A DNA stretch of 33,751 nucleotides from Planctomycetota bacterium (lineage in GTDB: Bacteria > Planctomycetota > Phycisphaerae > Phycisphaerales > SM1A02), in contig JAAERN010000069.1 of assembly GCA_024230295.1 (NCBI GenBank), forward strand, positions 1 through 33,751. The letters run 5' to 3'. A program made the position numbers and the translations under genes. The notes beneath the pieces are model-generated. The model was not told the origin of the DNA. It saw nothing but the letters and a program-made list of their open reading frames with translations, and did no database searches. Shown here in pieces: positions 3,402-7,401 of this stretch (position 1 is its first letter; each line of letters starts with the position of its first letter).

Positions 3402-5150
3402 TCAGTGACGTCGGTGCAGCCACCACGCGAGGATCGACTCTGATACGTCTACGCCAAGCCCGAATGCTTCATGCATCAATCTCGCGGACTCACACAGGCT
3501 GGTATTGCGGGATGCGTCGTTACCGGCGTGGGTCGCGGCAGTGAATGCAGTTGCCGCGCGGTGCCAGAGTTCTTGGTGGGGCGGCGCCGGCAGCGCCAAA
3601 ACATCTCGGGCCGCGAGTTTGATCGCCGAGGGGCTGCGGGCCGTTCCGAGGTGTCGATGCATGGCGATCAGCGAGACGAGCGGGCAAGCCAGCAAGGCTG
3701 CGACTTCCGAGAGTCGCTCTGCCGTCACGCTGATGATCGGGACGCTTGGAAGCCACTGCCCGTCTATATCAAGAACCGGCTCGAGAATGCGGGTCTGTGT
3801 TGGGAGCAGCACCTTCGGGACGAGTCGAGACGCCGCCCAGTCCTGCATGGACGGTTCAAGCGAGGAAAGCGTGACACCTGGACGGTGCCAGGATTGCTTG
3901 TGAAGCCGCATCGCTCGCTCACCCCACAGGCATTGGGCCACATCGAGTCCGCCGGTCGTGACGACCGGGGCGACCTCAGGGGGAATCGGATCTGGCGTTT
4001 CGACGAGTGCTGGAAGTAATCCGTAATACTGATCGCGGAAGTCGGCGGTGGCGTGGGCGATGCCTCCGAGCGTTCCGAGTTGTTCAAACGGCGGTAGATC
4101 CGGCACGCCAAAGGCGGGCGAGGCGAGTGTGGCCCATGAGTGACCGATGCCGGGGCGCGGCGATGGTGTGTACTCGGTGGTGGGAAGGCCACCGAACCGG
4201 CGAACTGGCGCAGGATCTCCGCTCGATCGTTTGTGAATGCCAATGGCACAGACGTGTACCTGCGCGTCAAAGATGCGGGCATTGGTGGACCATCCGAATG
4301 TCGGCTGGCAGTTCTTGAGCATCGTGTCGCGGATGGATTGGGTGTCTCGGGCGGCGAGCACGCTGAGCGGTTGGACGAGTGTCATGCGGCCGCCGCTGCG
4401 CAGTGATTTGCCTGCCAGCAGCAAAAAGATGGAGGCGATGTCGGCGTAGGGGCCGATCGGAGCTCCGGCGAGGATTGCGGCGCGTCGGCGAAGCGTCTCG
4501 GCATCCGTCCGGCGCCGAAGCGGCGTGCCGAAGGGCGGATTGCCCACGATGATGTCGGCGCTATGCGCAGGCAACGCATCGTCGTGGAACGCGTCGATGG
4601 TATGAATGCCGATTGCTGCTTCAGGAGCGTCTCCTGCGAGCGACGAGATGCGACCTCTGAGCCATGCAGTCGCGAGTGGATCTGGATCGAATCCGGTGAG
4701 TTGCGGTCCGATGCATCGCCACGCCGCGGATTCAGAACCGCCAACGCGGTGGCGGTGCAACGCTGCAAGCCGGGCACCTGCGGCCAAGAGAAACCGCCCG
4801 GAGCCGCATGCCGGGTCGAGCACAGTTGGCATGTCGCAGGCACCGCCTGCCAGCCACGGATCAAGCGTGTGATCCAGAATAAACGCGACCAGTTCGGTGG
4901 GTGTATAGAAAGCTCCGGCGCGGCGGCGGGCCTTGGCAGGCACGGCATCGGTGGTGGCGAAGTGGCTACTGAGGATTGGGAGCAGCGGTTCCAGATCGTC
5001 GGAGTCCGCGGCCTGCTTATGCAGCAGGGCGGCTGCGCAGGCAATCCTTGCCATGGGTGCCGCGGCGGACCCGACAGCCGCGTCAATACGCTCCAGAAAC
5101 TCAATTACCTCAAGGGTCATGCTGGTCACGATAGAGAGAATTGCGGGCAT
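3402..5150 (-). CDS. N6-adenine-type DNA methyltransferase, solitary
   Basis: A 582-residue DNA methyltransferase of the N6-adenine class. Motif order is X (GAFYTPTELVAFIL, 79-92), then the SAM-binding motif I (DPACGSGRFL, 112-121), then the catalytic motif IV NPPF (204-207). This order is typical of gamma-class enzymes such as HsdM or Type IIG methylase domains. The C-terminal 300 residues would hold target recognition (TRD) and contain motifs such as LVPKVLLPTQTRILEP. No PD-(D/E)xK-like or helicase partner is visible in or beside the gene, so restriction activity is not supported. It may be an orphan regulatory or protective methylase. The start at 5150 is the first ATG; a second in-frame ATG at 5117 is possible, and neither has a strong ribosome binding site. 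Confidence 0.85.
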   Translation of the reverse strand: MPAILSIVTSMTLEVIEFLERIDAAVGSAAAPMARIACAAALLHKQAADSDDLEPLLPILSSHFATTDAVPAKARRRAGAFYTPTELVAFILDHTLDPWLAGGACDMPTVLDPACGSGRFLLAAGARLAALHRHRVGGSESAAWRCIGPQLTGFDPDPLATAWLRGRISSLAGDAPEAAIGIHTIDAFHDDALPAHSADIIVGNPPFGTPLRRRTDAETLRRRAAILAGAPIGPYADIASIFLLLAGKSLRSGGRMTLVQPLSVLAARDTQSIRDTMLKNCQPTFGWSTNARIFDAQVHVCAIGIHKRSSGDPAPVRRFGGLPTTEYTPSPRPGIGHSWATLASPAFGVPDLPPFEQLGTLGGIAHATADFRDQYYGLLPALVETPDPIPPEVAPVVTTGGLDVAQCLWGERAMRLHKQSWHRPGVTLSSLEPSMQDWAASRLVPKVLLPTQTRILEPVLDIDGQWLPSVPIISVTAERLSEVAALLACPLVSLIAMHRHLGTARSPSAIKLAARDVLALPAPPHQELWHRAATAFTAATHAGNDASRNTSLCESARLMHEAFGLGVDVSESILAWWLHRRH

Positions 5151-5297: not shown

Positions 5298-5843
5298 ATG
5301 ATGCTTCAAACACTTTTTGCGTGTTGTGTTGTTTCTGCGGTGGCCGTTGGATGCAATTCGTCCGGCCCAAAGCCTGCAACTGCAGGGCAGCGTCTGGACA
5401 GCTCCAATTCGGCGTCCATCGCACTTGCAGGATTTGAGCGAGACTCCAATTCGGGCAAGTTCTTCGACTCCGCATACGCCTACGCGGTATTTCCGAAGAT
5501 TACGAAGGGCGCTGTCGGCGTTGGTGTCGCGAGTGGGTCCGGTGAGGTGTATCGCGGAGGTGAACTTGTTGGGTATGCCAAGGCGACAAGCGTCACCATC
5601 GGTGCGCAAATTGGCGGCCAGACATTTTCGGAGATCATCTTCTTCGAGAATCGGTTTGCTTTCGACAAGTTCACGAACAACCAGTTCGTCGGACAGGCCT
5701 CTGCCGGCGCCGTTGCCGGCGAAAATGGAGGTCTTGACATGGCCAATTACAGCCATGGCGTTGTCATTTTCACACGAAACAACAAAGGATTGATCGTGGC
5801 GGCCGATGTTGGAGGCCAGAAGTTTGAATATGAGGCGAAGTAG
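5298..5843 (+). CDS. YSC84/SYLF-domain lipoprotein
   Basis: A 181-residue protein of the SYLF (YSC84-like) family, a lipid- and actin-associated fold in eukaryotes; bacterial members are small envelope proteins of unclear role. The ATG at 5298 has an excellent AAGGAG site (5285-5290). The N-terminus is a lipoprotein signal ending in the lipobox AVGC, so Cys19 is the likely lipidation site. The SYLF core is seen as AYAYAVFPKITKGAVGVGVA near 53-72, then GYAKATSVTIGAQIGGQTFSE, and ends with GLIVAADVGGQKFEYE. The length fits single-domain bacterial members. It is divergent from the methyltransferase and followed by the large RNA candidate. Confidence 0.88.
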   Translation: MMLQTLFACCVVSAVAVGCNSSGPKPATAGQRLDSSNSASIALAGFERDSNSGKFFDSAYAYAVFPKITKGAVGVGVASGSGEVYRGGELVGYAKATSVTIGAQIGGQTFSEIIFFENRFAFDKFTNNQFVGQASAGAVAGENGGLDMANYSHGVVIFTRNNKGLIVAADVGGQKFEYEAK

Positions 5844-5897
5844 TCACAATTCGTAGGTGCTGTGTGTCAGGCACTTGCGACACCTTCCACCGTTTGT

Positions 5898-5967
5898 CCC
5901 CGGTTTCTCCCCGGTTTCATCCACCGACTTCGCTGGACTTGCGGCGCAGAGCTGCGCGACGTATTAC
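5898..5967 (+). promoter_or_regulatory. Candidate promoter region of the large RNA
   Basis: CCCCGGTTTC occurs twice at an 11-base period (5898-5907 and 5909-5918), one helical turn apart, as activator sites often are. Downstream, TTGCGG (5939-5944) and TATTAC (5962-5967) sit 17 bases apart and resemble -35 and -10 boxes at three and four of six matches. The spacer contains the inverted repeat GCGCAG-AG-CTGCGC (5944-5957), possible operator DNA. Transcription would start near 5974, a few bases before the first paired base of the RNA's closing helix. Confidence 0.45.
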
Positions 5968-5973
5968 TGCGTG

Positions 5974-7002
5974 CGTTGTCGCTGGCTGCTCGGTCGAGGC
6001 CGGGCTGGCGAAAGGCTCTTTGAAAAGCGGAGAAGTACGTGTCGGACAGCGAGAAAAGCCTCCGATCCGAAAGCAGCTGAGAGACCGAAAGGTCACGAAG
6101 CAACGTTCCATGGTTTCCCGACATTCCAGGAACGGCCGACGGAACACATCGGAACGCACCCAAGTTTCTCGCAGTCGCATTCGGCCCGGCGCCACACAAC
6201 GATCGTGGCAACGGGACTGCAGTACCGAATGGTGTCTGGAAGGCCGTGAACGGAACCGTGTTTCGATACGGGGAAGCACACGAAACCACCAGAAACGGAT
6301 CGACGCCTCAAACAAGCGAACAAGGAAAGCCTTCGGGCACCGAGTTCGTGACGCGACGATCGCGACAAGTCCAATAACCTCAGCCATGGAAATACCAGGC
6401 CGTGTCCTGCACGGAATGGACATGGAAGTGGAATGAGGAGTTCGAGGGCAGCATGGCTGCCCGGGCCGGCGGTTCCGGCGGCCCGAGCAATTGATGCTGT
6501 GGACCACCTCACGCGACCAAGTCGAGCAATCAGTTTATGACCCACACCGGGCGTGGGATCGGCGGAGAACATTCGTGTTCAAAGTCAAAGTTGATAGAAG
6601 TCTTGCCAAGACCGCGAGGAGGCTAGCACTGCTCGTGCATGGGATCCATGGTTCCGACGGGAACCACGGGAGATCCGAATGCCATGCACAGAAAGTAGCG
6701 CAGCTCGAAAGGAGTGGAGCGTAAATGCCACAAACGCTCACCGCGAGGCAACGCGGCGAGGACGCTGCCACTTAACGGAAACCGACACGCCCGATGTGCA
6801 CCGGGTAAGGTAGGGTCGCCTACCGAGATCACCGCGAGCGCCGATCATCGCCTACGCCGAAAGGCAACAGGAAGATGAACCGGTCCAGCTCAGCCCGGCC
6901 GAGCAGCCAGCGACTGCCTCAAGTGTGTGGGGGGACCCCCGCACTTGGGGGAGGAGAGAAGAAGCGAGGACGAGTCCAACGACTCGTCCTCGCGTTTTTT
7001 TT
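5974..7002 (+). ncRNA. Large structured non-coding RNA, about 1.03 kb, family not recognised
   Basis: No frame here encodes a plausible protein; the longest open frame is Arg-rich and lacks any domain. The RNA signs are strong. The 5' segment 5978-5992 pairs perfectly with 6900-6914 (15 bp) and 5999-6007 with 6891-6899 (9 bp), with one 6-base bulge, closing a domain of about 935 bases. Inside are many local hairpins: GACC-GAAA-GGTC (6083-6094), GCC-TTCG-GGC (6329-6338), CCATG/CATGG enclosing CCGTG/CACGG (6384-6425), GGGCAGC/GCTGCCC (6446-6462), CCCAC/GTGGG (6541-6557), GAACA-TTCG-TGTTC (6567-6580), a three-tier hairpin (6635-6689), GGTAGG-GTCG-CCTACC (6809-6824) and GCC-GAAA-GGC (6856-6865). 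A hairpin at 6920-6947 and a terminator follow. I found none of the RNase P, tmRNA or SRP RNA signatures. The 5' end is inferred from the promoter guess. Confidence 0.82.
6964..7002 (+). terminator. Intrinsic terminator of the large RNA
   Basis: A perfect 12-bp stem (6964-6975 with 6982-6993), a 6-base loop CCAACG, then G and eight T residues (6995-7002). On the minus strand the stem is followed by TTCTTCTCTCC, so it may also stop transcription of the gene at 7033-7401. Confidence 0.95.
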
Positions 7003-7032
7003 GCAATCTTGGAATTCGTTCCCGCTGCTGAA

Positions 7033-7401
7033 TCAACCTGCGCGTGCGCCATCGAGTGGTAGCGAAGGTGGAATGTCTTCTTCAGTCGGGACCATGATCT
7101 CCATGGTGTTGATCCAGGCCTTCGGAATCTTCTGCACGCTTCCGATCTGATCTGGCCCGCGGGAGTCGGTCAAGGCAATGAACTGCTCACACTCGTGAAT
7201 GAGCAGGCCGACCGTATGGACCTCGGCGAGCGGTCGAAGCGCAAACTCCACCATGTCCTCTGGATCCTCCCAGCCAGGCCCTCCACGGGCCTCGGCATCG
7301 ACCCAGCGAACTGACACGACCGGCCACGTGCGGGCGAGTGCCCGATCGGCGTCGCCGGAGTGGGTCGGCTGCGATTCGTTGGTCGGTCTGACCTGCGGCA
7401 T
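7033..7401 (-). CDS. Hypothetical 122-residue protein, phage-like in appearance
   Basis: A 122-residue soluble, acidic protein. The start is the ATG at 7401, chosen because GGAGG stands 7 bases before it; a longer frame upstream runs antisense to the ankyrin gene. The core VVSVRWVDAEA near residue 28, then TVGLLIHECEQFIALTDS, then VQKIPKAWINTMEIM resembles the pattern 'W.DA...GWL..E.dd.I.la......IPk.wI' that I associate with small uncharacterised phage proteins. That resemblance is from memory, not a search. No function can be assigned. It faces the large RNA gene tail-to-tail, 30 bases beyond its terminator. Confidence 0.7.
   Translation of the reverse strand: MPQVRPTNESQPTHSGDADRALARTWPVVSVRWVDAEARGGPGWEDPEDMVEFALRPLAEVHTVGLLIHECEQFIALTDSRGPDQIGSVQKIPKAWINTMEIMVPTEEDIPPSLPLDGARAG

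Follow-up and report, generated by a model that had tools for sequence, protein, structure and literature searches.

The intergenic gap of 1.19 kb between a SYLF/YSC84-like lipoprotein gene (ysc84) and a convergent gene encoding a 122-aa protein raises the question of what this planctomycete genome carries there. The gap lies within a stretch of 33,751 nucleotides that was analysed as a whole and is referred to here as the window. A sequence-only reading had suggested a large structured RNA of about 1 kb at this place. According to the comparative analysis, the gap almost certainly contains a structured RNA gene. Judging from sequence comparison, its best overall explanation, which we consider rather probable, would be a stand-alone gene for a structured RNA of about 1 kb that belongs to a new class and acts in trans as a folded scaffold. 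The gene is present in one copy in the window's genome, and its length is about 1.03 kb here and 0.86–1.2 kb among the full-length homologues. The consensus structure contains 156 G-U cells versus 42 A-C cells, which indicates that the plus strand is the RNA. The features of the locus are given in Table 1.

Table 1. Features of the RNA gene and of its flanks, in window coordinates
Feature	Position	Strand	Remarks
SYLF/YSC84-like lipoprotein gene (ysc84)	5298–5843		PF04366 and NF049970 matches, both below cut-offs
Four phased boxes	5886–5925	+	TCCACC 5886, TCCCCG 5897, TCCCCG 5908, TCCACC 5920; 11–12 bp apart
Sigma70-like promoter	5939–5967	+	-35 TTGCGG 5939–5944, 17-bp spacer, -10 TATTAC 5962–5967
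RNA gene	5974–7000	+	Homologues, covariation, non-coding; ends inferred from promoter and terminator
Closing helix, 29 pairs (helix 1)	5977–6008 / 6885–6915	+	97.1% of cells paired, six homologues
GNRA tetraloop	6010–6013	+	GAAA/GCAA/GUAA across six homologues
Second long-range helix	6038–6045 / 6782–6789 (CGUGUCGG/CCGACACG)	+	48/48 cells paired
GNRA tetraloop	6087–6090	+	GAAA/GCAA, lost in G008; stem (helix 9) with 3/4 pairs double-changed
Length-variable arm	6240–6290	+	Insertions: large in G002 and in G004, smaller in G006 and in G008 (alignment A5)
Conserved core with nine helices, aligned in nine homologues (model R3)	6440–6622	+	96.2% of cells paired
Hairpin CCCG-(N1-2 GUGCAC)-CGGG, palindromic apical loop	6790–6805	+	Candidate kissing/dimer site, role inferred
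Hairpin GGYRRG/CYYRCC, in most conserved block	6809–6824	+	36/36 cells paired, 3/6 pairs double-changed
GAAA tetraloop	6859–6862	+	ACAA in G008
Intrinsic terminator	6964–7002	+	13-bp stem 6964–6993, T-run 6995–7002 (eight T)
122-aa protein gene, convergent	7033–7401	-	Without Pfam or NCBIfam match

The RNAalifold consensus of the six full-length homologues from the genus comprised 316 pairs with 92.4% of cells paired, a percentage that leans towards the consensus, which was derived from the same alignment on which it was counted. Double changes were found in 108 of the 316 pairs, compared with a shuffled mean of 45.5, and none of 500 shuffles was as high; these shuffles ignore relatedness, and with seven of the nine homologue genomes belonging to one genus the cell counts overstate the number of independent events. 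When the partners were moved by 1–3 columns, 35–41% of cells were paired and 17–30 pairs were double-changed. The double changes relative to these slid controls are a firmer measure than the paired-cell percentages. The core was aligned in all nine homologues, including those of two other genera, and 21 of its 51 pairs were double-changed (0/500 shuffles). The stretch 6050–6430 appeared by eye to be the most variable. One pairing proposed by RNAalifold, CCGGGU/GCCCGG in alignment A2, was rejected since its 5' partner strand was missing from the sub-alignment; model R2 still includes it.

The two ends of the RNA are joined by the closing helix. In its outer 15 pairs, 117 of 120 cells were paired across eight homologues, a value reached by none of 2000 shuffles, and double changes were observed in G006, G028, and G029. 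The longest uninterrupted stem whose ends are separated by 600 nt or more (G-U allowed) was 19 bp, versus a mean of 10.6 and a maximum of 15, reached once, in 200 dinucleotide shuffles; the earlier opinion that such a helix is very unlikely to arise by chance is borne out by this comparison. The helix had been described as 24 bp long. Its arms at 5978–5992/6900–6914 and 5999–6007/6891–6899 are indeed perfect reverse complements, but this length is slightly generous for the family because 5985/6907 is unpaired in six of the eight full-length homologues. The second long-range helix, which joins the 5' and 3' domains, contains one double-changed pair, in G001; in G028 and G029, a U-A to C-G change was noted by eye, and the eighth pair is broken. 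Overall, covariation, proposed from the outset as a check of the structure, was strong for the closing helix and for most of the hairpins.

Of the 20 apical loops in the consensus fold, three are of the GNRA type. The loops of the GAAA and UUCG kinds reported before can thus be retained in part: the GNRA-type loops were found, but UUCG is not conserved, occurring at 6332–6335 in three of six homologues and at 6572–6575 in two of six. GNRA loops engaged in tertiary contacts often switch among GNRA variants, as the loop at 6010–6013 does. In the hairpin at 6790–6805, GUGCAC and both stem strands are invariant in nine homologues, and the hairpin therefore lacks covariation support. Its pair probability was at least 0.48 in six of eight full-length folds and about 0 in G008 and G028; in the window's own genome (G000), the lowest-energy fold pairs this site otherwise.

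The RNA would be transcribed from promoter-like elements of its own. The -35 tetranucleotide TTGC was present in all eight full-length homologues, 36–41 nt upstream of the helix start on which the sequences were aligned, and the -10 element TAT(T/C)A(C/A) in all six from the genus, being less clear in G028 and G029; a strict TTGACA/TATAAT sigma70 scan did not list the promoter. Upstream, degenerate TCCAC-type boxes were found in the eight full-length homologues, two other genera included, at matching distances from the -35 element (to within 1 nt), as read without a shuffle control and after the rows of G001 and G004 had been placed by hand on the correct TTGC. The boxes lie at about -19, -31, -42/43, and -53/54 from the -35 element, the outermost one missing in G029. 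The boxes follow one another at one helical turn, which points to activators lined up along a single DNA face. In G000, the only site matched by a two-box plus TTG pattern was the RNA promoter. The three-box plus TTG pattern was matched in 16 of the 181 genomes of the family, and the match was the RNA promoter in only five; two of the remainder were a pair from genus g5, and the other nine included, by eye, several tandem repeats. The same pattern missed the RNA promoters of G000, G008, and G028.

Genus g5 is another genus of the family, and in this pair of genomes a similar TCCAC-box array is followed by some 140 nt of RNA-like sequence (L121, about 1464–1720, G012:C55, array 49445–49489; L120, G136:C45, minus strand). 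A strong terminator was seen in G012; for G136, the reading covered the 5' part of the stretch. Neither stretch had an R3 match or an Rfam match at the cut-off. The sequence may encode a small RNA that shares its regulator with the large one.

At the other end of the gene, the intrinsic terminator noticed earlier was confirmed, its stem and T-run being accompanied by compensatory changes: 98.2% of cells in this helix (helix 48) were paired, and four pairs were double-changed. Separately, a purine-rich Shine-Dalgarno-like segment, GGGGGAGGAGAGAAGAAGC, lies before the terminator at window positions 6947–6965; it is identical in five of the six genus homologues and absent from G028 and G029.

Homologues of the RNA were found in nine of the 181 family genomes, namely in seven of the nine genomes of the genus and in one genome from each of two other genera (G028 and G029). 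A blastn search over 61 genomes found the RNA in its own genome and in six others of the genus, with identities of 72–90% in the longer matches and a patchy match in G008; six additional genomes gave short weak pieces, and those of G028 and G029 proved to be homologues. The 98-column covariance model of the core (R1) matched in eight of the 181 family genomes, newly adding G029, and the nine-sequence model of 182 positions (R3) matched in nine, which represent three of 45 genera. A scan of 400 sampled genomes of the order returned the same nine homologues and none beyond. The class and phylum samples comprised 298 (R1) and 392 genomes, and stricter filters were used in scans of more than 40 genomes. 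Two candidates from these samples were dropped: G476 (phylum, R3, 29.6 bits), which lies inside a long open frame, has no R2 match, and was taken as chance, and G261 (class, R1, 27.7 bits), for which R2 lists nothing at the locus.

An exact pattern run over the genome_contigs collection gave 15 stretches, eight of which were confirmed by the models; seven of these are titled Phycisphaerales and one Planctomycetota, from isolates such as Arabian9_MAG and ALOHA_ZT. The other seven (L054, L057, L058, L060, L062, L066, and L068) scored at most 15.6 bits with R1 or R2 and were dropped as unconfirmed. Matches with three mismatches outside the nine homologues resembled background, as the reversed-pattern control gave no fewer in a rough count. 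In the window itself, the reverse strand of a core hairpin (6449–6499, minus strand) had a weak R1 score of 27.7 bits; the hairpin is near-palindromic, and the match was therefore not counted as a second gene. Based on these searches, the RNA class would so far be confined to one family of Phycisphaerales.

Within the genus, the seven carriers have the RNA at one syntenic locus, in the order upp, methylase (minus strand), ysc84, RNA, 122-aa gene (minus strand), ankyrin, STAS, and sulfatase, as far as the fetched stretches reach. Exceptions are G004, which is devoid of ysc84, and G001, which has 3.7 kb between the STAS and sulfatase genes; the locus in G003 is cut by a contig end. In G028 and G029 the RNA occurs in other neighbourhoods, and no neighbour shared with the genus loci was seen; these remote homologues nevertheless keep the core, the closing helix, and the promoter boxes. 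As for the neighbouring genes, the 122-aa protein is 70–92% identical in the eight other genomes of the genus. The adenine methylase-like protein (3402–5150, minus strand) matched N6_Mtase above the cut-off and fell far under the cut-offs of the BREX and MADS methylase models; its gene is present in all five of the other genus loci whose sequence extends to this point.

Natural empty sites were found in two genomes of the genus, G005 (G005:C239, L097) and G007 (G007:C32, L096). Both keep ysc84 and the 122-aa, ankyrin, and STAS genes without the RNA, and the distance from ysc84 to the 122-aa gene is about 0.07 and 0.33 kb, respectively, by tblastn ends. No RNA remnant was detected in either genome; these are 93% and 86% complete, and a copy elsewhere in them is possible. 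Trees of the flanking proteins placed G005 with G003 and G006 (support 97–98), apart from G007. The two absences thus represent at least two events, most simply two losses. If the RNA has been lost in these genomes, it is non-essential.

Comparison with Rfam 15 (4227 families) at gathering scores gave a single match in the window, a tRNA fragment at 1–49, where the window starts inside a tRNA gene and includes its 3' portion. Up to E 10, eight matches were obtained for 5800–7050, all below the cut-off, the best with 19.8 bits versus 88.4 required; up to E 0.5, the eight homologue loci gave one match, with 27.6 bits versus 100. The comparison, suggested earlier as a check, thus yielded no family at the cut-off in the stretch or in the homologue loci, in accord with the view that signatures of GOLLD, ROOL, OLE, RNase P, and tmRNA are lacking. 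The only RNase P RNA of type A (RF00010) in the genome is a full-length gene elsewhere (G000:C92, 267.7 bits). ARAGORN found no tmRNA and no complete tRNA gene in the window, and Rfam had no tmRNA match there. The Rhodopirellula-1 motif of Proteobacteria and Planctomycetes is listed with no Rfam number (PMC2864571). Among the matches listed from the open-licence PMC literature there was no paper on such an RNA. Very probably, then, the RNA belongs to no known family in the searched collections. The earlier suggestion of a new class gains from the Rfam results, the lack of codon-like substitution, and the covariation; by sequence and fold, the RNA would be a new host-encoded class with its own phased promoter.

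The following mechanism can be proposed. A sigma70-type RNA polymerase would produce one transcript of about 1.03 kb, aided by an activator that occupies the upstream boxes in phase. In the folded transcript, two or more long-range helices together with GNRA contacts would hold a single closed domain. This folded RNA would serve in trans as an accessory scaffold, made of RNA alone or including protein, and would not act by pairing with mRNA. Conceivably, two or more copies associate via the palindromic GUGCAC loop. Action in trans is suggested by the different neighbours in G028 and G029, by the RNA without ysc84 in G004, and by the neighbours without the RNA in G005 and G007. By analogy, we lean towards the trans-acting folded scaffold, while homo-oligomerization is put forward tentatively. 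The most far-reaching version is rather speculative: a new giant-RNA class that self-assembles via the invariant palindromic loop, is switched on by a helically phased activator array retained across genera, and forms a dispensable RNA nanostructure encoded by the host and not by a phage.

The strongest alternative is a regulatory or sequestering ribonucleoprotein, in which the RNA would bind a protein or ribosomal factor and the fold would be a presentation frame that forms no homo-oligomers. 6S RNA and OLE are regarded as working mainly in such a way, by binding a protein or ribosomal factor. The covariation and the promoter evidence fit this alternative equally well, and several segments are conserved within the genus: the apical loops GGUUCC and UGCCA in all six homologues, and CGACGG and the purine-rich segment GGAGGAGAGAAGAAGC near the 3' end in five of six. 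However, neither the GGUUCC loop nor the purine segment is kept in G028 and G029, and no protein neighbour common to the genera was seen. We regard it as unlikely.

A ribozyme or a remnant of a mobile element (group I or II intron, retroelement, or phage-borne RNA) inserted beside ysc84 would account for the patchy presence, the empty sites, and the other neighbourhoods in other genera. Nevertheless, no intron, retron, or other Rfam family matched the RNA of the window or the eight homologue loci. Searches of the window RNA by blastn against 50,697 phage records and 72,556 plasmids had no match, and two patterns run over viral contigs gave zero and three stretches, none confirmed by the models. 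Within the genus, moreover, the RNA occupies one syntenic locus, and its two absences do not form one clade, which fits repeated loss. Such an origin therefore appears improbable.

Even less credible is a cis-acting leader, 3' UTR, or antisense RNA of ysc84 or of the convergent 122-aa gene. Of the seven genus loci that carry the RNA, five have ysc84 directly upstream, as this explanation would expect; against it stand the promoter-like elements and terminator of the RNA itself and the same differences in neighbours that speak for action in trans.

Finally, protein coding and artefacts of assembly or sequence can both be practically dismissed: open frames of up to 187 codons occur within the stretch, but the mismatches between G000 and G001 hit the codon positions evenly (37/30/32, versus 25/18/78 in ysc84), the majority of gap lengths in the RNA alignment are not multiples of three and so break the frame, and the RNA is carried by assemblies of several separate surveys. 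Coding is thus not supported by the flat codon-position pattern and the frame-breaking gaps, in agreement with the earlier statement that the gap holds no plausible protein, and the codon-like substitution that was to be looked for in the homologues was not seen.

The folded scaffold acting in trans is best viewed next to the large ornate RNAs. To our knowledge, few bacterial RNA classes are so large and elaborate, and we know of no earlier large ornate RNA from planctomycetes. Extensive covarying structure over several hundred nucleotides and a stand-alone gene, by which such RNAs are recognised, were both found here. Of the phage- or prophage-borne setting, often near tRNA islands, that characterises GOLLD and ROOL, these searches gave no sign: the RNA had no phage or plasmid blastn match, and the window has no tRNA beyond the fragment at its start. 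The likeness to GOLLD, ROOL, and OLE is one of analogy, given that the RNA matches none of the Rfam family models and lies at a fixed locus on the chromosome in the genus, not in a phage. RNase P RNA (RF00010) is likewise a large structured bacterial RNA and is encoded by a separate gene in the same genome. The locus demonstrates that intergenic sequence of an uncultured planctomycete can hold a kilobase RNA missing from Rfam, and its covariation-supported fold is ready for probing and cryo-EM.

In the extracts of the work considered here, many GOLLD RNAs are described as longer than 800 nt, with an elaborate fold, a less conserved 5' region, and a function that is unknown (PMC12286853). The RNA studied here is also very large and elaborately folded, with a variable region at 6050–6430. 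Unlike GOLLD, it has no Rfam or phage match and keeps to one chromosomal locus in the genus, and the window contains no complete tRNA gene. ROOL, as presented there, is large, stands alone, contains a variable linker, and is non-essential for one host (PMC12286853); its solved form has 659 nt. The length-variable arm at 6240–6290 recalls this linker, and the two natural absences recall its dispensability; unlike ROOL, the RNA is longer than the solved form and has no Rfam, phage, or plasmid match. In the dimer of OLE, also a large RNA, the contacts include a palindromic loop (PMC12286853), for which GUGCAC would be the candidate counterpart here, in an RNA that differs from OLE in lacking an Rfam match. 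As far as these extracts go, the recently solved GOLLD, ROOL, and OLE are homo-oligomers whose copies are bridged by symmetric kissing loops, some of them highly conserved, and the commonness of nanocages among large natural RNAs is left open (PMC12286853). A host-encoded class that is present in some members of one genus and absent from others makes this question directly testable. By analogy, if the RNA works at all, its mode of action would most resemble that of the large ornate RNAs in general.
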